Shown piece by piece: positions 7,755 through 21,612 of a stretch of 21,612 nt of DNA. Below the pieces are notes generated by a model. The model did not search any database. It was not told where the DNA came from and saw only the letters and a program-made list of their open reading frames with translations. The position numbers and the translations under genes are program-made. The DNA lies in IMG/VR virus record IMGVR_UViG_3300043464_001557, positions 1 through 21,612 of that record. One strand, given 5' to 3'. Each line of letters starts with the position of its first letter. The first letter of the stretch is position 1. This DNA is from a virus.

Positions 7755-8111
7755 ATGTTTGAGTTTTTATTCTCGGATTCTACTGAATGGGAGTGGGATG
7801 AGTCTTGGTATGAATCGTCTGTAATGACGGATACTAGGGATTTAGCACCTGATGAATCTATAATCAAGTTGGTTGGTTCACTTAAAACTGATGAATTTGA
7901 TTTAGAATTAATTCAAGAAGATGGTGTTCGTGATATTTATAATGCTGTAGAAGGTATTATGGCTTTAGGTTGGGAAAAATTACAAGATGATGAAGATTAC
8001 CCCGAAAAAAGAAGGGTCTTTAAATTTGGTGATACTAAAGAATCTGTAGATGAACAACTTTATGAATATGACCTTGTATTAAAGTATAAAGAAAATAAAG
8101 TAACAAAATGA
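7755..8111 (+). CDS. Small acidic protein of unknown function
   Basis: A 118-residue acidic protein (MFEFLFSDSTEWEWDESWYE) that I do not recognise. It is Asp/Glu and Trp/Tyr rich at the N-terminus and ends in a Lys-rich tail. I chose ATG 7755 over the in-frame ATG 7704: AAAGGTGA (7743-7750) gives one of the few good Shine-Dalgarno matches in the window at suitable spacing, and 7704 sits almost on top of the putative promoter. Its TGA overlaps the ATG of the next gene (ATGATG at 8108), so translation of the two is probably coupled. It may partner the 660-residue protein that follows. Confidence 0.65.
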   Translation: MFEFLFSDSTEWEWDESWYESSVMTDTRDLAPDESIIKLVGSLKTDEFDLELIQEDGVRDIYNAVEGIMALGWEKLQDDEDYPEKRRVFKFGDTKESVDEQLYEYDLVLKYKENKVTK

Positions 8112-10090
8112 TGAAAAAAAAATATTTTATACAAGAGGAGGTTGATGGTCAAAAGATGTCTGACGAACTTCAAAAAAGTTTAGCTCAAGATGAATTAAAT
8201 TTAGAAAAAGAAAAAGAAGAATTAAAAAATTTACAAACCGATTATAAAATTAAAGTACAACAAAATAATGATAGGAAAAAACTTAAAACTATGGGTGCCT
8301 CCGCCCCAGTAGGTTCTGATTCTAATACTGAGTCAAAAGCTTTATCACAAAGTATAAATGCTTATGAAAAACAAGAAAATTTTGTAAAGAAAAATATCGG
8401 AGATAAAGAAGAATCTATTAAACAGAAAGAAGAATTTATAAAATTAAAACAAGAAACCTTAAAAAATATGGAAAAAAATAATATGGGTGAACATAGAATT
8501 ATAAAAGCAAAAGATTTTAAATCTATTGTTGAAAACTATACTAAAATAAGTTTGTCTGAATCAGAAATTATGAATATACTTGTAGAGTCTCAAAATCCGG
8601 TAATGACTAAATCGGAATTGGTTGAGAGTATACAAAATAACTTAATAATTGAAGCAAGAATGAATCCTAATGTAAGTCGTAGTTTTGATAGTGGTGATAA
8701 TGAATATGCTGAACTTTTGGGTTCTGATATAGCCAAACAAATGGCTGACCAAGCTTTTGCTGATATAGCAAGAAACATACAACAAAAAACAGGTAGACAA
8801 AATGTTAATTTAGAAGATGTCCAACGATTATTGATGTCTTCTTTAATAGAAGCTGCTAAAAAAGAATATCAATACGGTATAGAAAGATTGGAAAGAAAAG
8901 CTGTTGAATTAGTTAGTAAAAAATTTAATGTCCCAAGTGGTTCATTGAACTTTGATGTTAAAATAACTGGTTTACCACCACAATTAGTTCCAGCACTTTT
9001 ACCTACATCAGGTCTTAACGGACAACAAATGATGGAGGCCATGAGTTTAGTACAAAACCCTACACCACAAAATTTAGAAAGACTTTCTGAAATGTTACAG
9101 GTTAGAATTGGTATGGTAGAAAAGGAGGGGATGAGTTATGAAAAAGGTAATACCCCACCACCACAAGGTAAAACTGCCGAACAAATGAAACCTAAAGTTA
9201 AACGAAGAAGATTAACTAACGCTATGATGCAAGGTTCAGCTAGATTAACACAAAACCTTCATTTTGCTGATGATGATTTTCGTGATGAAAACCCTGATTT
9301 AAGTCGTGAATACGGTAAAATTATGGCGGCTAATGACGCTAACTATTGGTTGATGGACGACGATACAATTAAAAGAGAAGGACAAGGTGGTATTCACGCT
9401 GGTAATTCAAGGGTTAAACTTTCTCAAACGGGGGGTGTACCAACAATTGTAGCACAAGGAATGACCTACCCAATATTATTACATGAATTAGGTAAAGGTA
9501 TTCCTGAATTAATGTCTTTATGGTCTTTACCCACTGACCCTGAAGAAAGAAAATATGTTTTATCTCAAACAGATAATTTAGAGGCTGAAACAAACGATAT
9601 TAGATTAGGACCGGCTCTTTGGACTAAATTTATTGAGGAGATACCTGTAGAAAATCAAGAAGTAGTTTCTTTAACTTGGCATAAACTACAGGAGTTAAGT
9701 GATTACGATTTTAATAGTATTGTTGAAGGTTTATTACAAAATAGAACCGATGCTAAAAATAAAATTAAAATGATGGCTGAGGAGGCTATTGAGGAATTAA
9801 GAGAAGAAGGTTCTGACGAGGCTCTTGGTGTTTACGGTGGTGATGAGGAAGAAGATGAAGAAGGTGATGTGGCAACACCTGAAGCTGGTGAAGAAAAAGA
9901 AGGTGAATATACTGATCCTGTATTGAAAAAACTTCTTGGCGGTGATGAGGAAGAAGATGAAGGTCCACAAGAAACTGGTAATCTTGAAGATATGTCAAAG
10001 GACCAATTAGTAAAATTAATGCAATCAGCAATTGAAGACGAGGATTATGAATTTGCTTCACAAATTAGAGATATCTTAAATAATAGATAA
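8108..10090 (+). CDS. Probable structural protein with C-terminal UVR-like motif
   Basis: A 660-residue protein of unknown function. Residues about 15-130 are Lys/Glu/Gln rich and predict a long coiled coil with a short break (GASAPVGSDS). Residues 130-330 are mostly helical (for example IAKQMADQAFADIARNIQQK). A basic patch, KPKVKRRRLTNAMM, lies near residue 365. Residues about 380-545 look globular and include GGVPTIVAQGMTYPILLHEL. Acidic linkers (GGDEEEDEEGD, GGDEEEDEGP) precede a C-terminal UVR-like helical hairpin, DQLVKLMQSAIEDEDYEFAS followed by QIRDIL. UVR motifs mediate protein-protein contact in UvrB, UvrC and McsA. The start overlaps the preceding stop. The position before terminase and the long coiled coil suggest a virion or assembly protein; no enzyme motif is visible. 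Confidence 0.7.
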   Translation: MMKKKYFIQEEVDGQKMSDELQKSLAQDELNLEKEKEELKNLQTDYKIKVQQNNDRKKLKTMGASAPVGSDSNTESKALSQSINAYEKQENFVKKNIGDKEESIKQKEEFIKLKQETLKNMEKNNMGEHRIIKAKDFKSIVENYTKISLSESEIMNILVESQNPVMTKSELVESIQNNLIIEARMNPNVSRSFDSGDNEYAELLGSDIAKQMADQAFADIARNIQQKTGRQNVNLEDVQRLLMSSLIEAAKKEYQYGIERLERKAVELVSKKFNVPSGSLNFDVKITGLPPQLVPALLPTSGLNGQQMMEAMSLVQNPTPQNLERLSEMLQVRIGMVEKEGMSYEKGNTPPPQGKTAEQMKPKVKRRRLTNAMMQGSARLTQNLHFADDDFRDENPDLSREYGKIMAANDANYWLMDDDTIKREGQGGIHAGNSRVKLSQTGGVPTIVAQGMTYPILLHELGKGIPELMSLWSLPTDPEERKYVLSQTDNLEAETNDIRLGPALWTKFIEEIPVENQEVVSLTWHKLQELSDYDFNSIVEGLLQNRTDAKNKIKMMAEEAIEELREEGSDEALGVYGGDEEEDEEGDVATPEAGEEKEGEYTDPVLKKLLGGDEEEDEGPQETGNLEDMSKDQLVKLMQSAIEDEDYEFASQIRDILNNR

Positions 10091-10098
10091 TTAAAAAT

Positions 10099-10692
10099 AT
10101 GATAAAAAATAAATTAGATAATTACTATCAATTTATTGAGGGATGTAGAGATAAAGTGGTAAATTTATACCATAATCATCATATAATACCTAAAAGTATG
10201 GGTGGTAGTGATGACCAAAGTAATTTAATAAAATTATCATACGAAGATCATCAAAAAGCACATATATTATTATCGGAATGTTTTGATAAAGATTCTAAAG
10301 AGTATAAATATAATAAATTAGCTTCACAATTATTAAGTAGTTGGGCAGACAACCCAAATGTAATTTTGAGTGGTTGGTCACATAGTGAAGAAACTAAAAA
10401 AAAGATGAGTGAATCAGCTAAAAGCCGAGTTTTTAGTTGTGATTATATTAATGGATTTGATGGTAAAAAACACACAAAAGAACATAAAGAGTATATATCT
10501 AAATTAAATACCTTAAAGTCTTTTACGGTGATACAACAAATAGGTAAAGATGGTAAATTAATTCATGAATATACTTCTTTAAGTGATATAAAAGAAAAAA
10601 ACCCTAGTTTTAATAAATCTAATATTAGTCACATGTTAAACGGGGGTAATTCTAAAAGTGTGTATGGTTATATATGGACATACAAGTATTAA
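10099..10692 (+). CDS. Free-standing HNH homing endonuclease (NUMOD-type)
   Basis: A 197-residue site-specific DNA endonuclease of the mobile HNH type. HNHHIIPKSMGG (residues 25-36), Asn42 and YEDHQKAH (48-55) form the HNH nuclease core with a bound metal. SHSEETKKKMSESAKSR near residues 93-110 matches NUMOD3-like DNA-contact helices. The C-terminal 55 residues (IGKDGKLIHEYTSLSDIKEK, then SHMLNG and YGYIWTY) match NUMOD1-like DNA-binding modules of intron-encoded nucleases. The length is normal for the class and nothing looks broken. It lies 8 bp after the structural gene and before a structured RNA segment, so it is a probable recent insertion riding in a late operon. I see no intron around it. 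The nuclease core resembles the one in the portal intein (HHxxxxKS...DHQKxH). Confidence 0.88.
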   Translation: MIKNKLDNYYQFIEGCRDKVVNLYHNHHIIPKSMGGSDDQSNLIKLSYEDHQKAHILLSECFDKDSKEYKYNKLASQLLSSWADNPNVILSGWSHSEETKKKMSESAKSRVFSCDYINGFDGKKHTKEHKEYISKLNTLKSFTVIQQIGKDGKLIHEYTSLSDIKEKNPSFNKSNISHMLNGGNSKSVYGYIWTYKY

Positions 10693-10697
10693 AAATA

Positions 10698-10729
10698 AAC
10701 GGATAGGACCGTTATAGTCTACGGACTAT
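10698..10729 (+). other. Two tandem RNA hairpins, one with a UACG tetraloop
   Basis: AACGG (10698-10702) pairs with CCGTT (10709-10713) around ATAGGA. Directly after, ATAGTC (10714-10719) pairs with GACTAT (10724-10729) around TACG. The C(UACG)G closure is the very stable UNCG tetraloop type. With the terminator that follows this makes three consecutive hairpins in the mRNA between the HNH gene and terminase. Confidence 0.7.
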
Positions 10730-10730
10730 T

Positions 10731-10766
10731 AAAACCCACCAAGTTCGCTACTATGGTGGGTTTTTT
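10731..10766 (+). terminator. Rho-independent terminator before terminase
   Basis: AAAACCCACCA (10731-10741) and TGGTGGGTTTT (10754-10764) form an 11-bp stem around a 12-nt loop that can pair further (AGT/ACT). The T-run covers 10761-10766. Confidence 0.88.
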
Positions 10767-10777
10767 CATGCCCGATG

Positions 10778-10785
10778 ATATTTAT
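10778..10785 (+). promoter_or_regulatory. Putative late promoter motif ATATTTAT
   Basis: ATATTTAT begins 11 bp after the terminator and ends 4 nt before ATG 10790. It overlaps the reading-frame ATG at 10775, so 10775 is unlikely to be used if this is the promoter. Transcripts would have almost no leader before 10790, or a leader of about 20 nt before the in-frame ATG 10811. Confidence 0.45.
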
Positions 10786-10789
10786 TTGC

Positions 10790-13700
10790 ATGAGTTTATC
10801 GAAGGCACAAATGTTATATGAAATAGGGAAGTGTTTATCTGACCCTATATACGCTATTGAAAATTATTTAGAAACAGAAGATAGGACACAAAAAGGTTTT
10901 GTACCTTTTAGATTATTTCCTAGACAAAAAGAATTAGTAAAGGCATATAAAGACCATCACCACAATATTGTGATGAAACCTCGTCAGGCAGGTATATCCA
11001 CAACAACAGCCGCTTATCTAGCGATTCTTACGGCTTTAGCCTCAAATAAGAGTACACAAAAAATTCTTATTGCGGCTAATAAACAAGAAACAGCTAAAGA
11101 ATTCTTAAAAAAAATTAAAGATTTTACAATGCAATTACCTGATTGGATGGATGTTTATCGTCCACCAGGAAATGATAGTTGGTTTAACCTAGAAAAAAAC
11201 TCAAGTTCACATTATAAATTATGGAATGGTTCAGAGGTTAAGGCGGTGGCTTCTTCAAAAGATGCTTTAAGGGGTTATACACCTTCAGTTATTGTAGTTG
11301 ATGAGGCAGCATTTATCGAAGGTAATAAAGGAGAGGAATTCTATACAGCAGCACAACCATCACTTTCAACAGGTGGTAGGTCAATATTAATTTCTTGTGT
11401 AACTGACGATACTTTTGTTTTAACACCAAAAGGTATTAGAGAAGTATCTGATTTTATTGAATACGATAAAGAAGGTGGTTATTTTACAAAAGAATATGAA
11501 ATTTATGGATACGGTAAATCTAGAAAATCTAATATTTTCCATAATAATGGTTTTGTTGATACTAAAATTATTGAAACTAAGTATTCTAAATTAGAAGGTA
11601 GTAATAACCATAAATTATATGCTTATTCTGAAAAAAACAATAGATTTGGTTGGTATAAATTAGAAGATTTAAACGTTGGGGATTATGTTCCTATTGTTTA
11701 CGGTCATGATGTTTGGGATAATAATGACAATTGTTCTGATTTTAATCCAATAGAAAACAAAAAAAATAAAAATATTTTTAGACCAAAAAAAATAACTGAA
11801 GATATTTCATATTTTATGGGATTATTCTTAGCTGAAGGTTCTTCATATAAATTTATTAAAAATGATAAACATATAGGGACATCTATTACTATTAGTTGTG
11901 GTGATAATGTATCCCATATTTTTGATAAATTAAATTTAAATTATTCTTATGACGGTGAATGGCATTATACTACCGGTTCTAAAGAATTAGGTGAATTTTT
12001 AGAGTATATGGGTTTTGATTTATCTTTAAAAGCTAAAAATAAAGTTATCCCAAAAAGAATATTTGAACTATCTAGAAAAAATATAATATCCTTTATAAAA
12101 GGTTTTATGGATGGTGATGGGTATAGTAGGTCTGATAACGGTAAAGTAGGCTTATGTTCATCATCAAAACGTTTGGTAGAACAATTTAGAATGTTGTTCA
12201 TGAACTTGGGTATATTATCTGAATATCAAGAAATATTAATGAAACCGACTAAAAGAGTTAAAGTCCATTCTATGAATTATAGATTAAATATATCTGATTC
12301 TAATTACTCTAAATTATATTACGATATAATCGGTTTTGATTTTAATAGAAAAGAAATTAAAAAAGAAAGTTTAAACAATAGATCATTTCGTAACACACAT
12401 GATATTATACCTATGGGTGCTGATATAATTAGAGATTTTTATAAAAAATCCAACAAAGGGTTAAAATATTTTAATGATAATGGATGTAATATATCACATA
12501 TAACAAAAAAGAATAGTAAAAGTAAACATATCAGTAGAGAGTTAATGTTAAGTTTTTTAGATATTATAAATGAAGAAAATGGTTTAATTAAAAATAACAT
12601 TACTTGGGTACAAATTAAAAATATTAAATCTAACCAAAATAATACTTACGATTTTTCTTTACCAGATTCACCAGAAGACTTTTGGTGTCACTCTGTTCTA
12701 TACAATGGAATTTTAGGGCACCAAACACCAAACGGACATGACCCACTTTATCATAAAGCCTATGTTACGGCGGAAAAGGGTAAAAATAATTTTAACATTG
12801 TATCGATGAGGTGGTATGAAGACCCTCGTTATAATGGTAAAAATGATGGTTCAGGTATGTCATGGGTTTTACGTCACGAAAAAACTGATGAAGTTGTAGA
12901 AGAATTAGTCGACCCTAAAAGTGGTTCAGGTCCCGATGCGGTAGTACCTGAAGAAACATGGCCTGAAATGATAGAAAAAGGGTATCAACCTAGGTCCAAA
13001 TGGTTTGATGATATGTGTGCCCAACTTAATCATAATGTTAGGTCGATTGCACAAGAGTTATTATGTTCTTTTGTTGGTTCGGGTGATAACGTAATTGACG
13101 ACAAATACAAAAATAGACAAGAAAGGGATAACGTTAGAGAGCCTTTAAGAAAAGAATGGTTAGATGGTAATATGTGGATATGGGAAGATCCAATAGCTGG
13201 TCATGAATATATTTTATCTGCTGACCCTTCTTCAGGTTCTTCTGATGACTTTGCCGGACTTTGTATATGGGATTTTACAACAGGAAATCAAGTTGCTGAA
13301 TATCATGGTAAAGTTGCTCCCGATGTTTTAGGTGAAATATGTAAGTATTATGGTGAATCTTACGATGCCTTTATTGTGGTGGATATCACTGGTGGTTGGG
13401 GTGCTTCTGTTGTACTTAAACTAATTGAATTAGGATACCCTAAAAGAAAACTTTATTATGATGTAACGGTTGGTATCGATTCTATTGAAAGTAATAGAGC
13501 CTTACAGAAATACATGGATAAAGGTAAATTACCTGGGTTAAATTTCCAAAAAAATAGAAATACAATTATATCTAAATTAGAAGAAGCTATTAGAATGGAT
13601 TCTTTTAAAATACGTTCTAAAAGAGCCTTAGCCGAAATAGAAACTTTTGTCTTTATTAGTGGTAGAGCGGACCACATGAAAGGTTATCATGATGATCTTT

Positions 13701-13954
13701 TAATGTCTATCGCGATGTGTTGTTTTGTTGCTTCAACTTCCTTTAAGGATTTGGAAAAATCAAAAGGTCAGGCCAAAGCTATGGTAAATAGTTGGTCAGT
13801 TGAAACAAATGTGGTAGAAGATAATAATATTTTAAATGAGGTAATTGGAACTGGTTTTTATGTAGACAACGCTAGTAAAAATAATAACATAACTATTGAT
13901 CAAACCAAAGAATATAATTGGTTATTCAGTGGTATGAAAGGATTTAAAAAATAA
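10790..13954 (+). CDS. terL: Terminase large subunit interrupted by a LAGLIDADG intein
   Basis: Packaging motor ATPase and headful nuclease of the T4 gp17 type. Numbering is from ATG 10790: P-loop MKPRQAGIST at 62-71, Walker B VIVVDEAA with Asp171/Glu172, and the ATPase coupling motif ILIS...TPNG, which is split by the intein (residues 203-645). The precursor is 1054 residues; the spliced protein would be 611, normal for the family. In the nuclease domain, ADPSSGSSDD (Asp812), VVDITGGWG (Asp865) and HDDLLMS (Asp968/969) supply the RNase H-like metal-binding acids. The P-loop lacks the usual GK(T/S) lysine; a lysine sits at the start of the motif (Lys63), as in lambda gpA. I prefer 10790 to 10775 because 10775 lies in the putative promoter; 10811 is also possible. 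No recognisable small terminase gene is nearby. Confidence 0.95.
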   Translation: MSLSKAQMLYEIGKCLSDPIYAIENYLETEDRTQKGFVPFRLFPRQKELVKAYKDHHHNIVMKPRQAGISTTTAAYLAILTALASNKSTQKILIAANKQETAKEFLKKIKDFTMQLPDWMDVYRPPGNDSWFNLEKNSSSHYKLWNGSEVKAVASSKDALRGYTPSVIVVDEAAFIEGNKGEEFYTAAQPSLSTGGRSILISCVTDDTFVLTPKGIREVSDFIEYDKEGGYFTKEYEIYGYGKSRKSNIFHNNGFVDTKIIETKYSKLEGSNNHKLYAYSEKNNRFGWYKLEDLNVGDYVPIVYGHDVWDNNDNCSDFNPIENKKNKNIFRPKKITEDISYFMGLFLAEGSSYKFIKNDKHIGTSITISCGDNVSHIFDKLNLNYSYDGEWHYTTGSKELGEFLEYMGFDLSLKAKNKVIPKRIFELSRKNIISFIKGFMDGDGYSRSDNGKVGLCSSSKRLVEQFRMLFMNLGILSEYQEILMKPTKRVKVHSMNYRLNISDSNYSKLYYDIIGFDFNRKEIKKESLNNRSFRNTHDIIPMGADIIRDFYKKSNKGLKYFNDNGCNISHITKKNSKSKHISRELMLSFLDIINEENGLIKNNITWVQIKNIKSNQNNTYDFSLPDSPEDFWCHSVLYNGILGHQTPNGHDPLYHKAYVTAEKGKNNFNIVSMRWYEDPRYNGKNDGSGMSWVLRHEKTDEVVEELVDPKSGSGPDAVVPEETWPEMIEKGYQPRSKWFDDMCAQLNHNVRSIAQELLCSFVGSGDNVIDDKYKNRQERDNVREPLRKEWLDGNMWIWEDPIAGHEYILSADPSSGSSDDFAGLCIWDFTTGNQVAEYHGKVAPDVLGEICKYYGESYDAFIVVDITGGWGASVVLKLIELGYPKRKLYYDVTVGIDSIESNRALQKYMDKGKLPGLNFQKNRNTIISKLEEAIRMDSFKIRSKRALAEIETFVFISGRADHMKGYHDDLLMSIAMCCFVASTSFKDLEKSKGQAKAMVNSWSVETNVVEDNNILNEVIGTGFYVDNASKNNNITIDQTKEYNWLFSGMKGFKK
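11396..12724 (+). mobile_element. LAGLIDADG intein in terminase
   Basis: An in-frame 443-residue intein. It starts at Cys (CVTDDTFVLTPKG, block A) and ends in block G, NGILGHQ, with Thr as the first residue after it. Block B is probably LEGSNNHKLYA, and block F NTYDFSLPDSPEDFW. Two LAGLIDADG helices of the homing nuclease are present: FMGLFLAEGS (terminase residues 342-351) and IKGFMDGDGY (436-445). Removing it joins ILIS to TPNG and restores the coupling motif. The last residue is Gln instead of the usual Asn, which is a known but uncommon variant. All parts look intact. Confidence 0.93.
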
Positions 13955-13960
13955 AAAAAA

Positions 13961-14197
13961 ATGGCAAGAATAATATCTAATAATCCCTTTAGTAAAAGAC
14001 CTAGTGTTAGAAAGGGTGCTGGACCAGTTTATAATATAGTAAAAAAACCTAATAATAATGCAAGTAATTTAAATAAAAAAGTTGTATCTGAATTATCACT
14101 TTGTTCTGGTGATTACGATAATTTAGTTAGTTACGTGTATGAGATTCAAACAAATGGTAATCATTTATCTTACGTTGATTGTGATTACGTAGAATAA
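13961..14197 (+). CDS. Small basic protein of unknown function
   Basis: A 78-residue protein that I do not recognise. The first 45 residues are basic and Asn rich (NPFSKRPSVRKGAGPVYNIV) and look disordered. The rest (SELSLCSGDYDNLVSYVYEI) is more hydrophobic and may form a small helical or mixed domain with two cysteines (CSGDY, VDCDY). It starts 6 bp after the terminase stop behind an A-run and has no Shine-Dalgarno sequence. It must be co-transcribed with terminase. Its place between terminase and portal suggests a small head or packaging accessory protein, but this is position only. Confidence 0.6.
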   Translation: MARIISNNPFSKRPSVRKGAGPVYNIVKKPNNNASNLNKKVVSELSLCSGDYDNLVSYVYEIQTNGNHLSYVDCDYVE

Positions 14198-14245
14198 AAT
14201 TACATACCATTCACATTACTAATTATGGGTTTATTTTTAATGGTA

Positions 14246-14254
14246 ATATTTATA
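14246..14254 (+). promoter_or_regulatory. Putative late promoter motif ATATTTATA
   Basis: ATATTTATA lies 21 nt upstream of the portal ATG in a 78-bp gap. It contains the exact TATTTATA core. No terminator precedes it here; ACCATT and AATGGT in the same gap could pair across a loop of nearly 30 nt, but no T-run follows. Confidence 0.5.
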
Positions 14255-14275
14255 ATATAAGAAATATTTTTTTAA

Positions 14276-17200
14276 ATGGCAGATAATAATAAAAATTTAA
14301 CAGTATATCAAAAACTATTCTACTTGTTTGGTCAGGGTCATGGTAGTGTAAAAAATAATATGACTTACAATAAGTATGCTTTAGACGATAAAGATTTAAT
14401 TGTAACTAAATCTAGACAAGATTACGAAAAAGAAAAATTACAATTACAACAACAAAAATATTTAGAAGGTCAATGGGCTAAGGTTGATAACGAATTATAT
14501 CAAAAAGCCGTATTTTATGAAACTTCTAGGATAGCTTCTTACATGGATTTTGAGGCCATGGAATTCACACCTGAAATAGCTGTTGCTTTAGATATTATGT
14601 CTGAGGAGAGTTGCCTTGCTGGAAACACTTTAATACCATTATTAAATGGTGAAAATATTACTATAAAAGAATTGTATGAAAAAAATTATACTAACTTTTG
14701 GGTGTACGGTGTTAAGATAGATGAGGATAGTATAAAACCCTCTATAGTAGATAAAGTTGTTTATAAAGGTTATAAAGATGTTTATAAAGTAATTTTAGAT
14801 GATGATACAGAAATTATTTGTACCCCAGACCATAAATGGTTAAACACTGAAAATAAATGGGTAGAAACTAAAGACCTAAAACATGCGACAGCTTTAAAAT
14901 CTATTTACAGTAAAAAAACTGCTAAAGGTTATGAAAAAGTTTCTTTAAATGACCATTGGAGTGATTACAAATTAACCCATAGAATTGTGGCTGATAGTAT
15001 TTTAAAAGAAGAGAAAAAAAGTTTATTAGATAACCCAAGGAATGATTCCCAAAAAATAGTTATACACCATAAATCTTTTAATAAATTAAATAATGATCCT
15101 AGTGAATTACAATATATGTTTTGGGACGACCATCAAAAGTTACATTATGAATTAAATTCTGAAAGATGGTTAAACACTGAGTATAGTGAAAAAATGAAAA
15201 AAATATTTAGTGATACAGCCAAAATGACGTGGTCTAAGTTGAGCCCTGAAGAAAGATTTATAAAACGTTCTTCATCTATGAAAAACTTAATCAGTAAATT
15301 AAGTTTAGAGGATAAAAAACGTATTTATGGTAGAAAAGGTGAGAATAATGGTATGTATGGATCCCAAAGAAATGGTAAACTTAATCCAAATTATAACCAT
15401 AATAAAAAACACATAGAAGATATTAATGAGGATGAATATATAAAATTTATATCATCAATTAAGGGTGATAGAATTAACCCTACAACAAATTATTTTAATT
15501 TAACCAGTCAATCAGTCATTAATTTTAATAAAATTCTATGTAAAAAATATAATCTACAAAGAATTGAGGATATAGATTTTGTAACCAATAAAGAAGGTTA
15601 CTCAATTACAAACATGAAAAATTTCATAAAAAACTCAAAAAACCCACATAGAGAATTTAAAAAATATTGTAATGTAAATAATTTAGATTACCAAGTAACT
15701 AGAAGATTTATAAATAAACAAGGTTATTCTAAATGGGGTGATTTAATCGATAATGTTGATAATCATAGAGTTGTTAGTGTTGATTATGTAGGTAAAGAAG
15801 ATGTTTATGATTTAGTTAATTCAAGTGTTGATAGTACTTTTGGTGTTAAATGTGAAAATGGCATGATAGTATCACATAATTGTACTTTAAATGAACAAGG
15901 TAAAATTTTAAGTATATATTCAGATTCATCTAGAATTAAAAAAGTTTTAGAAGATTTATTTTTCAATGTTTTAGATATTCATTCTAATTTACCTATGTGG
16001 ACTAGAAATACATGTAAATATGGTGATAATTTTCTTTACTTAAAAATAGATTATAAGGACGGTATTATTGGGGCATCACAATTAACTAACATAAACATTG
16101 AAAGGAAAGAATCAGGTTTATTCCCATTCCAATCTTTAAAAGACGATACATCACAAGAACCAAACGCGTCAAAAAAACAAGTTAAATTTTATTGGAGAGA
16201 TAAAAGTTTAGAGTTTAATGCTTGGGAAATAGCACACTTCCGTTTATTGGGTGACGATAGAAAACTACCTTATGGTACTTCTGTATTAGAAAAAGTTAGA
16301 CGTATTTGGAAACAATTACTTTTAGCTGAAGACGCGATGTTAGTTTATCGTGTTACCAGAGCTCCTGAAAGAAGAGTATTTAAGGTTTACGTTGGTAACA
16401 TTGATGATAATGATGTTGAAGCTTATGTACAAAAAGTTGCTAATAAATTTAAAAGAACACAAAAAGCCGATAGAGAAACAGGTCAAGTAGACCTTAGATA
16501 CAATACCTTAGCGGTTGACCAAGATTACTTTGTTCCTGTAAGAGACCCTAATGCTAGTAGTCCAATAGAAACTTTGGCGGGTGCCTCTAACTTAGACCAA
16601 ATAGCTGATATCCAGTTTATCCAAAGAAAAATGGTAACGGCTCTTAGAGTACCAAAAACTTTTTTAGGTTTTGAAGAAGTTGTGGGTGATGGTAAAAATT
16701 TAGCCATGCTGGACATTAGATTCGCTAGAACTATCAATAGGATTCAACAATCTATTATCCAAGAATTAAATAAAATAGCTATTATTCATTTATATATTTT
16801 AGGGTTTCACGATGAATTAAATAATTTTAAATTAGTCCTTAATAACCCATCAACACAAGGTGAAGTTCTTAAAGTTGAACAATGGAAAGAAAAAGTACTT
16901 CTTTACAAAGACCTTGTATCAGCTATTGATGGTGGTATCGCTCCTACATCTCATACTTGGGCTAAGAGAAATATATTTAACTGGTCTAATGATGAAATAT
17001 TAGAAGATTTAGAACAACAAAGACTTGAAAGAGCGGCAGCTAAAGAACTTGAAAATACCCCTGAAGTAATTAAAAACACTGGGTTCTTTAAAAAAGTGGA
17101 TAAACTATATGGTGAGATATCTACAGGTGAAGAAACACCTACTGAAACTGAGGGTGAAGAAACTGGTGGAGGATTCGGTGGAGGAGAAGAAACTGGTGGA

Positions 17201-17446
17201 GGATTCGGTGGCGGTGGATTTGACTTAGGTGGAGGAGAAGAAATTGGCGGTGGAGAAGAAATTGGCGGTGGAGAAGTTGGTGGATCTGAAGCAGGAACTG
17301 GATTTGGTGAAAGTTTTAGGGGTGATGAAAATGTTATAGATAGACTTCTTTTGGAGGGTAAAAAGAAGAATGAAGACATATTTAATATGACTAAAGGAAT
17401 TGATTTATTACTTAATGAAGAAAATAATGAAATACTTGATAGCTAG
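14276..17446 (+). CDS. Portal protein interrupted by an HNH intein
   Basis: T4 gp20-type portal, the dodecameric vertex ring to which terminase docks and through which DNA enters the head. The precursor is 1056 residues; after splicing it would be 633, slightly above usual because of a Gly-rich tail. Flanking portal sequence includes EIAVALDIMSEES before the intein and CTLNEQGKILSIYSDSSRI after it. Further portal-type segments are YKDGIIGASQLTNINIERKE, EIAHFRLLGDDRKLPYGTSV, YRVTRAPERRVFKVYVGNI and FIQRKMVTALRVPKTFLGFE. The tail from about residue 960 is GGGFGGGEETGGGFGG-like and ends in a helical segment, IDRLLLEGKKKNEDIFNMTK. No Shine-Dalgarno sequence; the leader is A/T rich. Unlike T4, no tail sheath or tube gene separates terminase from portal. 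Confidence 0.93.
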   Translation: MADNNKNLTVYQKLFYLFGQGHGSVKNNMTYNKYALDDKDLIVTKSRQDYEKEKLQLQQQKYLEGQWAKVDNELYQKAVFYETSRIASYMDFEAMEFTPEIAVALDIMSEESCLAGNTLIPLLNGENITIKELYEKNYTNFWVYGVKIDEDSIKPSIVDKVVYKGYKDVYKVILDDDTEIICTPDHKWLNTENKWVETKDLKHATALKSIYSKKTAKGYEKVSLNDHWSDYKLTHRIVADSILKEEKKSLLDNPRNDSQKIVIHHKSFNKLNNDPSELQYMFWDDHQKLHYELNSERWLNTEYSEKMKKIFSDTAKMTWSKLSPEERFIKRSSSMKNLISKLSLEDKKRIYGRKGENNGMYGSQRNGKLNPNYNHNKKHIEDINEDEYIKFISSIKGDRINPTTNYFNLTSQSVINFNKILCKKYNLQRIEDIDFVTNKEGYSITNMKNFIKNSKNPHREFKKYCNVNNLDYQVTRRFINKQGYSKWGDLIDNVDNHRVVSVDYVGKEDVYDLVNSSVDSTFGVKCENGMIVSHNCTLNEQGKILSIYSDSSRIKKVLEDLFFNVLDIHSNLPMWTRNTCKYGDNFLYLKIDYKDGIIGASQLTNINIERKESGLFPFQSLKDDTSQEPNASKKQVKFYWRDKSLEFNAWEIAHFRLLGDDRKLPYGTSVLEKVRRIWKQLLLAEDAMLVYRVTRAPERRVFKVYVGNIDDNDVEAYVQKVANKFKRTQKADRETGQVDLRYNTLAVDQDYFVPVRDPNASSPIETLAGASNLDQIADIQFIQRKMVTALRVPKTFLGFEEVVGDGKNLAMLDIRFARTINRIQQSIIQELNKIAIIHLYILGFHDELNNFKLVLNNPSTQGEVLKVEQWKEKVLLYKDLVSAIDGGIAPTSHTWAKRNIFNWSNDEILEDLEQQRLERAAAKELENTPEVIKNTGFFKKVDKLYGEISTGEETPTETEGEETGGGFGGGEETGGGFGGGGFDLGGGEEIGGGEEIGGGEVGGSEAGTGFGESFRGDENVIDRLLLEGKKKNEDIFNMTKGIDLLLNEENNEILDS
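14612..15880 (+). mobile_element. HNH intein in the portal gene
   Basis: An in-frame 423-residue intein at precursor residues 113-535. It starts CLAGNTLIPLLNG (block A), has block B TPDH at 183-186 (TxxH), and ends DVYDLVNSSVDSTFGV (block F) then NGMIVSHN (block G), followed by Cys. Asn as last residue and Cys at +1 are the classical arrangement. The central nuclease is HNH type: HHKSFNK (His264/265), Asn in the N-N-D-P stretch and DHQKLH (285-290). A NUMOD3-like segment, GENNGMYGSQRNGKLNPNY, follows. Splicing motifs and nuclease core look intact. Confidence 0.93.
17156..17283 (+). repeat. Gly-rich coding repeats in the portal tail
   Basis: A 26-bp unit (GAAGAAACTGGTGGAGGATT and six more bases) occurs at 17156-17181 and 17186-17211, offset 30 bp. 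A GAAGAAATTGGCGGTGGA unit then occurs twice in tandem at about 17238-17270. They encode EETGGGFGG and EEIGGG units, a flexible low-complexity tail. Confidence 0.8.
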
Positions 17447-17449
17447 AGC

Positions 17450-17457
17450 ATATTTAT
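17450..17457 (+). promoter_or_regulatory. Putative late promoter motif ATATTTAT
   Basis: ATATTTAT begins 4 nt after the portal stop and ends 15 nt before the next ATG (17473). It has the same spacing class as the copies at 5215 and 19689. Confidence 0.45.
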
Positions 17458-17472
17458 TTTAAAAATATTGCT

Positions 17473-18267
17473 ATGAATTTTGGTACATTAAAAGATATAT
17501 TCACCGAGAAGTTAATAGAATCTTATACTTCTGATGATAAAACAGGTAAAGAACTATACAAAAAATTCCTTAAAATATTAAAAGAAAACGAAACTTTAAA
17601 AACAACTTTTATTATTTATAAGAATTTAGAGACAAAAACTTTTAAAAGTGAAATTGCTGCTAATGATTACCTTAAAGAATCTATATCAATATTGGATAAA
17701 TTTAGGGGTGAAGAATCAATAAACGAACAATCAAAAGTTTTAATTAATCTTTTAGAAAAAAACTGTATTAATTATAAAGACCGACAAACTAAAGATCTAC
17801 ACGAGTCAATACATAATTTATTAACTATTAAAAAATCTGTTTCTACAATAGATAAGATACAAGAATCTAAAGAAAATTTGGTTGGTTGGTTAATGAAAGA
17901 AAAAGAAGTTATTTCTGAAGAAACTACCTATATTAATACAGATGTCAACCCAAATAAATTCCTAGAATTAGCTGTTAATAAATTTAATGAAAAATATAAA
18001 GATAGTTTAACAGAAGAGGAAAAAAATATATTAAAAGTTTTACGTGAGAATAATGAAGAAAACACTAAAACTTTAGTATCTAATTTAGTTAAAGAAACCA
18101 TAGAACTCGTTAATAATCATTTAGAATTGTATGGAGAAAATGTTACAGTAAAATCAAAATTATTAGAAACTAAAGATGCTATCTATAAGATGGCAGAAAA
18201 TAACGACAGTTCTAATGATAAAGTTCTAAAACTGTACGATTTAAAAAATAATTTAAAAAATGATTAA
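17473..18267 (+). CDS. Helical Lys/Glu-rich protein of unknown function
   Basis: A 264-residue protein that I do not recognise. It is almost entirely Lys/Glu/Asn/Leu rich and predicted helical, with heptad-like stretches (ESISILDKFRGEESINEQSK; LVSNLVKETIELVNNHLELY). There is no membrane segment or enzyme motif. It follows the portal gene and precedes the protease by three genes. In T4 the small prohead core proteins gp67 and gp68 occupy a similar interval, so a core or scaffold role is possible, but I see no sequence evidence for homology. Its stop overlaps the start of the holin gene by 8 nt. Confidence 0.65.
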   Translation: MNFGTLKDIFTEKLIESYTSDDKTGKELYKKFLKILKENETLKTTFIIYKNLETKTFKSEIAANDYLKESISILDKFRGEESINEQSKVLINLLEKNCINYKDRQTKDLHESIHNLLTIKKSVSTIDKIQESKENLVGWLMKEKEVISEETTYINTDVNPNKFLELAVNKFNEKYKDSLTEEEKNILKVLRENNEENTKTLVSNLVKETIELVNNHLELYGENVTVKSKLLETKDAIYKMAENNDSSNDKVLKLYDLKNNLKND

Positions 18268-18814
18268 TAGATTTTTAAACCACTTTGTAAGTTGTTTTGG
18301 GTTTACGTGTAAACAAGATTTTGGTGACTCGATTGTACACTCTAATTTAATGCCACTAACAATACCTATTGCAGGTATTTCAGCTTTTATTGAATCTTTT
18401 ATAGGTTTACAAGGATTAACTGTGTTTGCATTTGTTGTTTTAGTTATATTAGAATTGATAACTGGTATAGTTGCGGCAAAAGCTAGAGGTGAAAAAATAG
18501 TATCACACAAATTTAGTCGTTTTGGTTTAAAAGTTTTTGTATGGATGTGTTTATTATTTATAACAAATTCTGTTGGTCTTGAATATGAAAATCATAAAGA
18601 TTTTTTATCTAAAATGGGTAGTGGGTTTTTTAGTTGGTTACATGGTACCCTTTTTGTTTATGTAACGCTAGAATATTTAATTTCTGTTTTAGAGAATATC
18701 GGTTCATTAACAAATGAAAAAAGTAAAAAAACTTTAATTACAGCAATAATAAATAAATTAAATAGTTTCCTTGGTCTTGAAAAATCTGAAAAAAAATCTG
18801 ATGAAACTAATTAA
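18260..18814 (+). CDS. Phage holin (holin 4 / toxin-secretion family type)
   Basis: A 184-residue membrane protein, probably the holin that forms lesions in the inner membrane to start lysis. Four hydrophobic segments lie at about 31-48, 53-73, 88-107 and 122-146. The conserved family stretch runs from the second to the third: ELITGIVAAKARGEKIVS, then KFSRFGLKVFVWM, then YLISVLENIGSL near the end. This pattern (acidic residue-x-x-TG, small charged loop, S...GLK, ENIGSL) is typical of the holin family also annotated as toxin-secretion holins. The tail is Lys/Glu rich. The start overlaps the preceding stop by 8 nt. No endolysin is present in the window. A holin inside a head-gene block is unlike T4. 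Confidence 0.8.
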   Translation: MINRFLNHFVSCFGFTCKQDFGDSIVHSNLMPLTIPIAGISAFIESFIGLQGLTVFAFVVLVILELITGIVAAKARGEKIVSHKFSRFGLKVFVWMCLLFITNSVGLEYENHKDFLSKMGSGFFSWLHGTLFVYVTLEYLISVLENIGSLTNEKSKKTLITAIINKLNSFLGLEKSEKKSDETN

Positions 18815-18824
18815 GGATGTCCTA

Positions 18825-19067
18825 ATGGAAAAAGGTAGATGGTCTCAAGGTAGAATCTATCTTTTTTGGTCTATATTAGCTTATTATGTTACCCTAGGTA
18901 TTCTAACTTGTACGGGTATGACTAAAAAAGCTAATATAGATATGAATAATTTTAAAATTATTATAGACGCCTTAGAATATTCAATGACACTATTCGCTGG
19001 TTATGTATTTGGGAATAGGTTCCTAGAAATATTTAAGGTTTTGAAATCTAATAAAAAAGATGAATAA
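18825..19067 (+). CDS. Small two-helix membrane protein, possible holin partner
   Basis: An 80-residue membrane protein of unknown function. Hydrophobic segments IYLFWSILAYYVTLGILTCTG and, near the C-terminus, YSMTLFAGYVFG are separated by a short polar loop, and the end is Lys rich (KSNKKDE). I chose ATG 18825 because AAGGA (18813-18817) sits 7 nt upstream; in-frame ATGs at 18771 and 18801 would start inside the holin gene. It begins 10 bp after the holin stop and ends just before a strong terminator, so it is presumably made with the holin. A second holin, antiholin or spanin-like helper is possible, but I saw no lipobox or signal sequence that would settle this. Confidence 0.65.
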   Translation: MEKGRWSQGRIYLFWSILAYYVTLGILTCTGMTKKANIDMNNFKIIIDALEYSMTLFAGYVFGNRFLEIFKVLKSNKKDE

Positions 19068-19084
19068 TCTTAAAAATTATTAAT

Positions 19085-19115
19085 AAAGCCCCCTAAATTT
19101 AGGGGGCTTTTTTTT
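19085..19115 (+). terminator. Strong rho-independent terminator
   Basis: A perfect 26-bp palindrome at 19085-19110 (AAAGCCCCCTAAA and its complement) with five G-C pairs in a row, followed by T to 19115. It ends the holin unit. Confidence 0.95.
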
Positions 19116-19152
19116 GTTCTATATTTTTATTATATTTTAACAAAAATTATGT

Positions 19153-19211
19153 ATGAATAAAATGTTATATAACACGGTTTTAAACCCGGAGGCAAATTAA
19201 TAAACCTATTA
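19153..19211 (+). promoter_or_regulatory. Leader with micro-ORF and looped Shine-Dalgarno site
   Basis: The leader holds a 15-codon reading frame at 19153-19200 (MNKMLYNTVLNPEAN then TAA). GGAGG at 19188-19192 is the best Shine-Dalgarno match in the window, but it lies 19 nt from ATG 19212. Between them TTAATA (19197-19202) can pair with TATTAA (19207-19212) around AACC. This hairpin would bring the two sites closer, as described for T4 gene 38. I could not define a promoter upstream; only A/T-rich sequence such as TATATTTT (19131-19138) is there. Confidence 0.4.
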
Positions 19212-19649
19212 ATGAAACGAGGAAAAGAAATGAGGGTAGAAACCCCTTACCAATACAATGTAATTACAGGAACAGTAGACAATAAAACACCCAAATCAAT
19301 TTATATTCAAATATCAGCATGGGGTAAACCAAAAGAGTGGGGAATTGAAAATTATGAAACTATAATTAAAAAAAAATCAAAAAGAGTTAAAAGTAAATTA
19401 TATGAAATTTTAGATGATAAATCTTTTTATAAAACAAAAACAATTGTTGATTTTAATATGGCTTCTTCTGGTATTAATTATGATAAAAGAAGTTTTATGT
19501 CAGTAGAATTAACTTTATTTAAAAAAGAACCTTTAATACCAATCAATTCAGATGAAATAAAACCACTAATAGAATCTATATCTGAAAAAATTATTAAAGA
19601 TGTTTTTGAAAAAGATGAGAACTTTGAATTTTTTAAAAGTAAAAATTAA
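19212..19649 (+). CDS. Terminator-bracketed protein of unknown function
   Basis: A 145-residue protein that I do not recognise. The N-terminal half has alternating strands (QYNVITGTVDNKTPKSIYIQ; SIYIQISAWGKPKEWG), then a very basic stretch (IIKKKSKRVKSK), a further strand region (DFNMASSGINYDKRSFMSVE), and a C-terminal amphipathic helix (LIESISEKIIKDVFEKDENF). This is compatible with a nucleic-acid-binding or small alpha/beta fold. No signal peptide or membrane segment is present. A second start at ATG 19230 is possible (AGG 7-8 nt upstream). It is the only gene between two terminators and lacks the ATATTTAT motif, so it is probably expressed on its own schedule, like a moron or an early gene. 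Lys/Ile content matches the neighbours. Confidence 0.65.
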   Translation: MKRGKEMRVETPYQYNVITGTVDNKTPKSIYIQISAWGKPKEWGIENYETIIKKKSKRVKSKLYEILDDKSFYKTKTIVDFNMASSGINYDKRSFMSVELTLFKKEPLIPINSDEIKPLIESISEKIIKDVFEKDENFEFFKSKN

Positions 19650-19651
19650 GT

Positions 19652-19680
19652 AAAAGGGGGATTTAATCTCCCTTTTTTTT
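19652..19680 (+). terminator. Rho-independent terminator
   Basis: AAAAGGGGGA (19652-19661) pairs with TCTCCCTTTT (19667-19676), 10 bp with one G-U pair, around TTTAA, followed by T to 19680. Confidence 0.88.
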
Positions 19681-19688
19681 CTTACGGC

Positions 19689-19712
19689 ATATTTATAAAA
19701 AAAATATAAATA
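19689..19712 (+). promoter_or_regulatory. Putative late promoter ATATTTATA with inverted copy
   Basis: ATATTTATA at 19689-19697 starts 9 bp after the terminator and ends 14 nt before the protease ATG. TATAAATA at 19705-19712 is its exact inverted copy across a 7-A spacer, reaching into the start codon. The second copy equals the canonical T4 late core in forward orientation, but it would place transcription start inside the gene. Confidence 0.5.
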
Positions 19713-20467
19713 TGAAAATATTAAAACCGGGTGAAACAGGTGCAGGATTTTTAGTAGAATATGATTCAGGGTACATTTCCCCTGAATTAACTTGTCCTGA
19801 TGGTGTTTGTTCAAACTCTAACTTAATTAAAGAATTTAAGTCAGGTACAAATCTAACTTTAGATGGTCCACTACCCGAAAAAATAGAAATATATGCCGTT
19901 CTTCAGAAATGGGGTGTTGAAAACAAAAACGGTAGAGTTTATCCAAAAGAAATTTTAGAAAGAGAAGCCAAAAGATATCAAGAGTTTATTGATATGGGAA
20001 CTTCACTTGGTGAATTAAATCACCCTGAATCATCTATTATTGATGCTGATAGAGTATCACATAGAATTACTGAAATATGGTGGGAGGGCAGAACTCTTAT
20101 GGGTAGAATGGAATTGGATACAACACCAGGTTATCATAAAATGGGTATCATATCTTCCGTTGGAGATAAAGTTCTTAATATGATAAGAAAAGGTTGGACT
20201 GTTGGTATATCTTCTAGAGGTGTAGGTTCACTTAAAAATGAAGGTGGTAAGAATGTTGTTCAAGATGATTTTGAATTAATTTGTTGGGATATTGTTACTT
20301 CACCCTCTACACCTGGTTCTTGGATATCAACAGAAGAAAAAGATTTAAAACCTTATATGGAATCTACGGAAAATAAAAAATCTTTAATAGATACCAAGAA
20401 TCATAAAAAATTTTTATCTGAAGATGAAACAAAATTATTAGATGATTTAAATAAATTTTTATTATAA
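19712..20467 (+). CDS. Prohead core maturation protease (T4 gp21 type)
   Basis: A 251-residue serine protease of the T4 gp21 / prohead protease type. It degrades the prohead core and trims head proteins, in T4 after (L/I)xE motifs, before DNA packaging. The domain spans about residues 62-210: YAVLQKWGVENKNGRVYPKE, then GTSLGELNHPESS with the candidate catalytic His104, then TVGISSRGVGSL with Ser167/Ser168, then FELICWDIVTSPSTPGSWIS. These are the signature blocks of the family. The first 60 residues include CPDGVC and may be a removable extension. The C-terminal 35 residues are charged and helical. The start follows an A-run leader. Neighbours are the terminator-bracketed gene upstream and two small genes downstream, where T4 would have the scaffold gene. 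Confidence 0.92.
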   Translation: MKILKPGETGAGFLVEYDSGYISPELTCPDGVCSNSNLIKEFKSGTNLTLDGPLPEKIEIYAVLQKWGVENKNGRVYPKEILEREAKRYQEFIDMGTSLGELNHPESSIIDADRVSHRITEIWWEGRTLMGRMELDTTPGYHKMGIISSVGDKVLNMIRKGWTVGISSRGVGSLKNEGGKNVVQDDFELICWDIVTSPSTPGSWISTEEKDLKPYMESTENKKSLIDTKNHKKFLSEDETKLLDDLNKFLL

Positions 20468-20474
20468 AAAAATA

Positions 20475-20518
20475 ATGCGCGCAGCAGCAGCTAGCTTTTA
20501 GCAAAAAGCAAAGCAGCA
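20475..20518 (+). other. G+C-rich GCA-repeat island between genes
   Basis: GCGCGCAGCAGCAGCT (20477-20492) is about three quarters G+C in a very A+T-rich genome. Two exclusive hairpins are possible: GCTA/TAGC (20490-20493 with 20499-20502) or GCTTTT/AAAAGC (20494-20499 with 20504-20509). A short frame ATG 20475 encodes MRAAAASF and stops at TAG. It lies in the 68-bp gap after the protease. Confidence 0.6.
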
Positions 20519-20535
20519 AAAATAAATAAAATAAA

Positions 20536-20814
20536 ATGAAAAAAGTAATTAAATTAACTGAATCTGATTTAGAAAAATTAGTTCAAAGAATTATTAAGGA
20601 AGAAGATGTGGAACAACAAAAACCCACCTCAACAAGTAGTATGAAAAAAGATATTACACAAACCGGTAAGGAATTAGGTGGTTTGGTTGGTCTTGAAAAG
20701 GAGGGTATAACTAAATTAAATTTAGTGATAAAAAAATTAAACGAACCTGGAAATCAAATCACTGGTAATGCTAAAAATTTATTAGTTAAATTGTTTAAGG
20801 AATTTGGTGTTTAA
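20536..20814 (+). CDS. Small protein with charged helical N-terminus
   Basis: A 92-residue protein of unknown function. The N-terminus MKKVIKLTESDLEKLVQRII followed by KEED is an amphipathic charged helix of a kind that recurs at the start of several proteins here. A Ser/Thr/Gln linker follows (QQKPTSTSSMKK), then a helical C-terminus (GITKLNLVIKKLNEP; NAKNLLVKLFKEFGV). No enzyme motif. It follows the protease and the G+C-rich island. The position is that of a core or scaffold gene in T4, but it is much shorter than gp22, so I do not assign that role. Confidence 0.6.
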   Translation: MKKVIKLTESDLEKLVQRIIKEEDVEQQKPTSTSSMKKDITQTGKELGGLVGLEKEGITKLNLVIKKLNEPGNQITGNAKNLLVKLFKEFGV

Positions 20815-20826
20815 TTTTTTAATCTG

Positions 20827-21348
20827 ATGAATATTCGTAAAATTATAAAAGAAGAATTGTTAAAAGAAATTGTCTCTGGGTATGACGACCCAACAGTAAT
20901 GGGACAACACGCAGTTCAAACATTATCCATTATAGTTAATAGTTATAAAGATTTAAGTAACGTTTTTGGGGCTTTAGCTAACGCTATAAAAGATAAACAA
21001 CCTAAAGAAGATATTATAACTTACTTGAATGAAACTATTGAAGAAATGCGACAATTTATTCAGTCAGTAGAAATAGTTATTAAAGATTTTAGTGAAAGGG
21101 GTTTGATTAATAAAACTAATAAAATAATGGATAAAATGAAAAGTCGTGAGGTTGAGATTAGGACTTTAATTAATATGCCAAACGATGTTATTAGTGATAC
21201 CCAATTTATGGAGCGTTTAAAAATAATATTAATGGATTTACTCCCATCTATACAAGATTGGGCAAAAGAATTAAATTTAACTAGAGGATTATTTGTTGAT
21301 AGATTAAGTGGTACAAATAAAGGTTCCTTTGGTATGGGGTTTAATTAA
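20827..21348 (+). CDS. Helical protein of unknown function
   Basis: A 173-residue, almost wholly helical protein. The N-terminus MNIRKIIKEELLKEIVSGYD is again a short charged helix with IIKE and LLKE. Residues 30-160 form amphipathic helices (ETIEEMRQFIQSVEIVIKDF; NKIMDKMKSREVEIRTLINM; ERLKIILMDLLPSIQDWAKE). The tail is Gly rich (GTNKGSFGMGFN). It starts 12 bp after the previous stop behind a T-rich leader. A head core or virion role fits its place after the protease, but nothing in the sequence proves it. Confidence 0.62.
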   Translation: MNIRKIIKEELLKEIVSGYDDPTVMGQHAVQTLSIIVNSYKDLSNVFGALANAIKDKQPKEDIITYLNETIEEMRQFIQSVEIVIKDFSERGLINKTNKIMDKMKSREVEIRTLINMPNDVISDTQFMERLKIILMDLLPSIQDWAKELNLTRGLFVDRLSGTNKGSFGMGFN

Positions 21349-21407
21349 TTTTATACTTCACAAATTAAAATATTTTTTTGATCATTAACTCAACAATAAT
21401 TATTAAT

Positions 21408-21425
21408 TTTTAAAACGTTTTAAAA
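21408..21425 (+). promoter_or_regulatory. 18-bp perfect palindrome at the start of the last gene
   Basis: TTTTAAAACGTTTTAAAA is a perfect inverted repeat whose last base is the A of ATG 21425. It could be a protein-binding operator or an mRNA hairpin that hides the start. The rest of the 76-bp gap is A/T-rich without an ATATTTAT match. Confidence 0.4.
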
Positions 21426-21612
21426 TGGGAGACCAAACATTAAATTTTTTCCTCGTTAGAGTTGAGTTTGAAACAATAAATGAAACTACAGGAAAACCAA
21501 AAAAAATTAAGACACAGTATCTTGTAGATGCTATGACTTGTACTGAAGCTGAAGCTAGAACACATCAATACCTAAATGGTACTGTATTAGATTATGAGAT
21601 TGTATCAGCAGT
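21425..21612 (+). CDS. DUF4494-like protein, 3' partial
   Basis: The first 62 complete codons of a protein that runs off the right edge. After MGDQTLNFFLVRVEFETINE comes KIKTQYLVDAMTCTEAEART. This resembles DUF4494 proteins, which have an N-terminal strand, a Lys-rich hairpin, and then YLVDA(L/M)(S/T)xTEAEAR. That family is typical of Bacteroidota genomes and their phages; its function is not known to me. The match is by motif memory and only part of the protein is visible. It starts inside a palindrome, 76 bp after the previous gene, and probably opens a new unit. Confidence 0.65.
   Translation, partial: MGDQTLNFFLVRVEFETINETTGKPKKIKTQYLVDAMTCTEAEARTHQYLNGTVLDYEIVSA

Follow-up and report, generated by a model that had tools for sequence, protein, structure and literature searches.

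Three predicted homing elements in the packaging genes of an uncultured T4-like virus

The packaging genes and their insertions

The IMG/VR record IMGVR_UViG_3300043464_001557 is a 21.6-kilobase (kb) sequence of an uncultured virus with T4-type late genes, which encode a terminase (gp17-like), a portal protein (gp20-like) and a prohead protease. The whole stretch, positions 1 to 21,612, is referred to here as the window. Three elements lie in its packaging region: a free-standing HNH homing endonuclease gene, an intein with a LAGLIDADG endonuclease in the terminase, and an intein with an HNH endonuclease in the portal (Table 1). A preliminary description had recognized these three elements, and their nature and position are confirmed by profile matches and by exact gaps at the element-free locus L003 (relatives are designated by L numbers). 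It had called them three homing nucleases; the number of endonucleases is correct, but two of the three are borne by inteins. It is highly probable that the three are homing elements, each mobile on its own, and that the lineage of the window gained them recently.

The T4-type identity of the terminase is evident from its match to gp17 structures (E=1e-21). The insert in this gene matches LAGLIDADG_3 (E=3e-10), while the matches to Intein_splicing (E=3e-5) and TIGR01445 both fall under their cut-offs. Its classification as an intein is settled by the exact empty site in relatives, by the splicing blocks and by an AlphaFold2 (AF2) model that matches the TliVMA intein. The model has a mean predicted local distance difference test (pLDDT) score of 91.8 and aligns with the nuclease-bearing TliVMA (7qss) at a template modeling (TM) score of 0.72 and with PI-PfuI at a TM of 0.61. 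The splicing residues are C1, block B GSNNH72, YDFS (D419, the block F Asp), H442 and the Thr at +1, and these motifs are conserved in 21 homologues save for a few end variants. Both LAGLIDADG motifs are present with their catalytic acids, FLAEG (E147) and FMDGDG (D241). The intein ends not in the canonical asparagine (Asn) but in glutamine (Gln), at GHQ/T (a slash marks a junction). Gln is the rule among the homologues and Asn is found in few (e.g. L173, L195 and L203). A C-terminal Gln is a recognized intein variant and does not exclude membership. The insertion point, S/T, aligns to T/T of the T4 gp17 sequence ITTTPNG, between the last two threonines, in the ATPase coupling motif.

The portal intein is the better match to the splicing profiles, with Intein_splicing at E=8e-15 (55.5 bits against a cut-off of 35.8), intein_Nterm at E=6e-10 and a PHROG HNH family at E=7e-7. 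Its splicing motifs are C1 (CLAGN), block B TPDH, YDL and SHN/C, and the HNH residues H152, H153, N161, H174 and H178 are invariant in five homologues. The AF2 model has an overall pLDDT of 60.9 with low confidence in the nuclease part, too weak to give a structure of that part. The match of the portal sequence to the gp20 structure starts downstream of the insertion site, and the DNA of the intein matched none of the named phages. Excision of the two inteins in silico yields SILIS/TPNG and MSEES/CTLN, the uninterrupted sequence of relatives. The inteins have no detectable similarity to each other and no common origin was seen by BLASTP (E about 1); one carries a LAGLIDADG and the other an HNH endonuclease, which upholds the earlier claim that two different intein lineages have invaded two packaging-motor genes.

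The free-standing open reading frame (ORF) passes the Pfam HNH cut-off (E=1.9e-5), matches the PHROG homing endonucleases (E=4e-19) and has a weak NUMOD3-like motif at its C-terminus. It combines an HNH domain with an intergenic place and an element-free allele in a near relative. The terminator-like hairpin that follows it is also present in relatives that lack the gene and is therefore outside the insert. No close relative was found in viral contigs, where full-length matches reach 38% identity at best. A broken and inverted relative (58%), seen only by local comparison and without an intact N-terminus, lies in the matching spacer before the terminase in L023 (399-899) and L024 (1657-2157). 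A shared origin with the HNH domain of the portal intein was rejected, as the best BLASTP E value of 0.4 gives no meaningful similarity.

Table 1. Features of the packaging region and prohead protease gene, in window coordinates
Feature	Position	Strand	Remarks
Inserted HNH element	10088..10689	+	602-bp stretch missing from L003; pairwise DNA alignment
Free-standing HNH homing endonuclease gene	10099..10692	+	197 amino acids; HNH motif intact (HNHHIIPKSMGG..NL..DHQKAH)
Terminator-like hairpin and T-run	10733..10766	+	Between HNH gene and terminase; read from sequence, alignment of relatives
Terminase ORF	10775-13954	+	Open across 443-residue insert; ATG at 10790 likelier start (homology)
Terminase large subunit (gp17-like) N-extein	10790..11395	+	ATPase domain up to coupling motif (...SILIS)
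Conversion mark left of terminase intein	11386..11395	+	Against L003: synonymous ATT CTT to ATA TTA, TCG to TCT
Terminase intein	11396..12724	+	443 amino acids; C1...H442-Q443/T; LAGLIDADG endonuclease
Terminase C-extein	12725..13954	+	TPNG..., nuclease domain, up to stop
Portal ORF	14276-17446		Open across 423-residue insert
Portal protein (gp20-like) N-extein	14276..14611	+	...MSEES
Conversion mark left of portal intein	14605..14611	+	Against L003 and L215: GAA GAA TCT to GAG GAG AGT
Portal intein	14612..15880	+	423 amino acids; C1...H422-N423/C; HNH endonuclease domain (HHKSFNKLNNDP...DHQKLH)
Portal C-extein	15881..17446	+	Up to stop; Portal_T4, E=7e-68
Prohead protease	19712-20467		Peptidase_S77

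Alleles with and without the elements

The locus L003 lacks all three elements, yet its terminase extein is 100% and its portal 97% identical in protein to those of the window. Alignment of the DNA leaves three exact gaps, of 602 base pairs (bp) for the HNH element, 1329 bp for the terminase intein and 1269 bp for the portal intein. The HNH insert is flanked by no single-nucleotide polymorphisms (SNPs) over about 480 bp on the left and by 11 within about 200 bp on the right (10694-10897). Between 10898 and 16193 only 8 of 2698 comparable sites differ, and all of them lie within 10 bp upstream of one or the other intein site; this count follows correct placement of the junction codons (TCT vs TCG; AGT vs TCT), as the aligner had put bases beyond the gaps. 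The first difference downstream of the terminase intein is at 14605, so that 12725-14604 is without a SNP, and downstream of the portal intein the two sequences are the same until 16194. Contigs from two further metagenomes show the two states of the portal locus, one each. In L215 (metagenome 3300034355) the portal is empty with the flank as in L003, and L209 (metagenome 3300042946) is 100% identical to window positions 14846-21612 with the portal intein present.

A second pair of this kind is formed by L067 (occupied) and L004 (empty), which differ by an exact 1326-bp insert at the terminase site. The junction reads AGC/ACG in L004 and TCT/ACA in L067, with no other change within 50 bp. The flank TCT/ACA is shared by the occupied alleles of the window, L067, L070, L169 and L172 (L078 has TCA), and the portal flank GAG AGT/TGT by those of the window, L070 and L077; the empty relatives L003 and L009-L011 differ from the carriers in these codons. 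A change between TCT and AGT or between AGC and TCT requires at least two substitutions in one codon at the insertion point, which argues for replacement of a short stretch rather than mutation. Both breakpoints lie so close to the insert that repair of a local cut is suited to them, whereas ordinary recombinational loss would scatter breakpoints in the flanks. These patterns are best explained by recent homing that left very short conversion tracts, and we infer its direction. The short marks may be the conversion tract itself or the remnant left after recombination with empty sisters. No donor of the window elements was found.

Intein-free alleles are plentiful among the relatives, as the preliminary description had proposed to check. 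The exact in-frame empty terminase site is present in L003 and dozens of others, and most of the 80 loci recovered with the spliced terminase are intein-free at the site used in the window. An alignment search for relatives of the terminase intein itself gave 41 loci. In the terminase tree the window, L067, L070, L078 and the group L169/L171/L172 constitute five carrier lineages, each with intein-free closest relatives, and the 90-row tree, counting well-supported branches only, requires at least seven changes of intein state. The elements are also found apart. Of the two inteins L067 has only that of the terminase, whereas L077 is occupied at the portal site of the window (112; 43% identical) and lacks the one at terminase site 207. 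L070 has both inteins at the matching two sites, with only 60 bp between the neighboring genes and therefore no room for the HNH gene. Terminase and portal inteins occur together in 3 of the 77 contigs sampled, more often than by chance (Fisher p=0.008, not corrected for kinship of the contigs). Both catalytic acids of the terminase intein have been lost in L078 (E147K, D241N); their retention in the window and loss in this relative fit a homing cycle of gain and decay.

Further insertion sites were inferred from alignment breaks, near residues 60-73, 199, 321-336, 364-375 and 509-535 of the terminase and near 98, 156, 245-260, 347 and 387 of the portal; every break that was read through proved to be an intein, and the others are known as breaks alone. 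The contig IMGVR_UViG_3300001097_000006 (L186, 6900-14900) has five inteins, three in the terminase (TALG/C..HN/TGG, MLIS/C..HQ/TPNG and HDD/C..HN/C) and two in the portal (YGT/C..HN/S and PGA/C..KN/S), and L206 has the same insertion pattern. Two portal inteins (9549-10718 and 10896-12164) and one in the terminase are present in L078. The portal ORF of an unannotated 484-kb phage genome (L219; LR756508.1, 145234-151283) seems to hold three inteins. A split intein divides the terminase near residue 321 in L081 (1585-3071), L082 (8976-10462) and L077 (9024-9421). A nuclease-like ORF lies between the intein halves of L081 (MTES_1575, E=2e-5, under the cut-off) and, judging by the equal insert length, of L082; it is absent in L077. 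This arrangement resembles 'fractured genes', split inteins with an intervening endonuclease gene, although the likeness is seen in L081 and L082 and not in the window. In the contig IMGVR_UViG_3300023281_000793 (L207/L065, approximately 1550-1660) the terminase intein breaks off after 31 residues and is followed almost directly by an intein-free C-terminus, and this allele is probably a chimera of occupied and empty forms. Mobile genes were rejected as the cause of the longer terminase-portal spacers of relatives: inspection of the ORFs there by eye, with no dedicated search, revealed no obvious nuclease other than an intein in L186.

Elsewhere in the window, the first ORF (23-1168) has a weak nucleotidyltransferase-like N-terminus, and the ORF preceding the HNH gene (8108-10090) has a UvrB/UvrC motif at its C-terminus. 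A small ORF between terminase and portal (13961-14197) is kept in many relatives, with the end YVDCDYV or similar, and has no PHROG match. Two patches, 8100-8550 and 16650-17400, differ far more from L003, with identity as low as 49% and 83% over 150 bp, while the surrounding DNA is mostly 96-100% identical. The first falls at the beginning of the ORF 8108-10090 and the second at the portal's glycine-rich end.

Gain, loss and alternative explanations

Distances among carriers bear directly on the descent of the inteins. The ratio of the window-L070 distance to the window-L067 distance is 0.85 (0.66-1.08) for the terminase intein and 2.78 (2.18-3.61) for the extein, and because these ratios disagree strict co-descent is rejected. 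Between the window and L070 the portal intein is 88.0% identical in DNA, with a synonymous divergence (dS) of 0.49, while the portal itself is 81.7% identical with a dS of 0.88. Strict vertical inheritance of the inteins is thus rejected. The condition that would have spoken against repeated invasion, namely that all relatives carry both inteins with matching trees, was not found. Instead, the abundant empty alleles, the five carrier lineages beside intein-free kin, the separate occurrence of the elements and the distances out of proportion all support the repeated invasion proposed at the outset. A single recent transfer uniting the window and L067 inteins was rejected, since their DNA identity is only 81.5%.

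Several observations weigh against a reading of recent homing. For the window and L067, the terminase intein has a dS (0.87) close to that of the extein (0.86-0.99), consistent with shared descent. The intein DNA alone does not reject a clade of the window and L067 (p=0.18), and the deeper groupings agree, with intein and extein trees both uniting the same six carriers. The flanking codons of the carriers are also found in some empty relatives, so that the marks do not name a donor. Tracts of 10 bp or less are shorter than expected of T4 homing, and exchange with empty sister phages may have shortened them since. We conclude that lineages gain and lose the elements but also pass them on by descent for a while. 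The copies in the window are most likely recent gains, and gain over loss in its lineage is strongly favored but not proven.

The agreement of dS and of the deeper trees is what would be expected if the inteins were old, vertically inherited and recently lost, L003 and L004 having discarded their elements by recombination with element-free phages. This would require losses beside every carrier and the loss of three elements at breaks no more than about 10 bp from the inteins, and it conflicts with the distance ratio and with the lesser divergence of the portal intein than of the portal; we regard it as distinctly unlikely. Import of all three elements in one recombination event from one donor is suggested by their joint absence from L003, by the presence of both inteins at the same two sites in L070 and by the co-occurrence of the two inteins. 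However, the identity of 12725-14604 to L003 excludes a divergent donor block, a donor of the same lineage already holding all three would be needed, and L070 could not have housed the HNH gene. A block import is therefore unlikely.

Two other explanations have less in their favor. The inteins might be retained for regulation, holding packaging back until conditions suit it, and a biosensor role has been proposed, untested, for the two large terminase (TerL) inteins of the Microcystis phage Mic1 (PMC7156551). Near-identical phages manage without inteins, the presence of these is patchy, and the nuclease domains of the window are intact, as a mobile element requires, which makes such a role very improbable. 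Misjoining of inserts into one contig has to be considered because these are metagenome assemblies, and L207/L065 resembles a join of occupied and empty alleles. An assembly artefact is nevertheless extremely improbable, as separate contigs show the portal occupied (L209) and empty (L003, L215) neither intein breaks the reading frame or lacks a splicing motif, and inteins are found again at these codons in other contigs.

Under the homing that we favor, each element is a selfish endonuclease gene whose product would cut the element-free copy of its target when two related phages co-infect a cell; the genome that bears the element would then serve as template for repair, which copies the element in. 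The intein-borne elements occupy codons that are conserved, in the terminase (ATPase coupling motif) and in the portal, and would splice out as protein, presumably with efficiency, leaving the essential extein functional. The free-standing HNH gene lies in the spacer ahead of the terminase, much as the T4 mob genes lie in theirs. The first arrivals of the elements would have been independent. Because the inserts interrupt both the coupling motif of the gp17-like terminase and the portal protein, head assembly would presumably depend on two splicing events.

Relation to known homing systems

Each element adds a member to a known kind, among phage TerL inteins, phage portal inteins and mob-like HNH genes. 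In mycobacteriophages the terminase is the commonest intein host, including at a coupling-motif site, and portal inteins are also recorded (PMC5050341). The mycobacteriophage intein TerL6-f likewise interrupts a phage large terminase at the coupling motif, and TerL inteins are reported to be splicing competent with an active endonuclease. The window differs in belonging to another phage group, in its T4-type terminase, in the Gln that ends the intein and in having an unrelated second intein next door, in the portal gene. By identity the best match in phage records to the terminase intein is the large TerL intein of Mic1 (28.9% over 320 amino acids), which has an equivalent insertion point (LLTG/CVAP...SHN/TPKG; PMC7156551). 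However, Mic1 is a siphophage, its intein ends in Asn, and its second TerL intein is in the nuclease domain rather than in the portal.

In T4, mob HNH genes lie in spacers, and homing is known to leave converted flanks behind (PMC2988022). Like mobA-mobE, the HNH gene of the window is intergenic beside an essential gene and has sequence changes on one side of the insertion; it differs in adjoining the terminase, and the likeness lies in the HNH domain. Haloarchaeal mcm genes likewise harbor several inteins at neighboring sites of essential genes, with flanking codons carried by homing (PMC10643990), although two neighboring phage genes are involved here rather than one archaeal gene. What is unusual in the window is the combination of near-isogenic alleles, very short marks and stacking in two neighboring genes.

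A broader proposal is offered tentatively, as a doubtful one. The packaging genes of uncultured T4-like phages may form a standing arena, in which several homing elements come and go in the terminase and portal of a single lineage, nearly one allele at a time, using several sites per gene, with up to five inteins in two genes and tracts of 10 bases or less, and in which stacking in neighboring genes would be favored by the biology of the elements over chance.

The natural near-isogenic pairs (window/L003 and L067/L004) differ near the insertion sites by little else than homing elements in essential packaging genes. They make testable both the length of the conversion tract left by homing in T4-like phages and the cost of an intein in the packaging motor. 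The Gln-ending inteins of the terminase coupling motif, together with those at further sites in relatives, are new inteins for splicing work.

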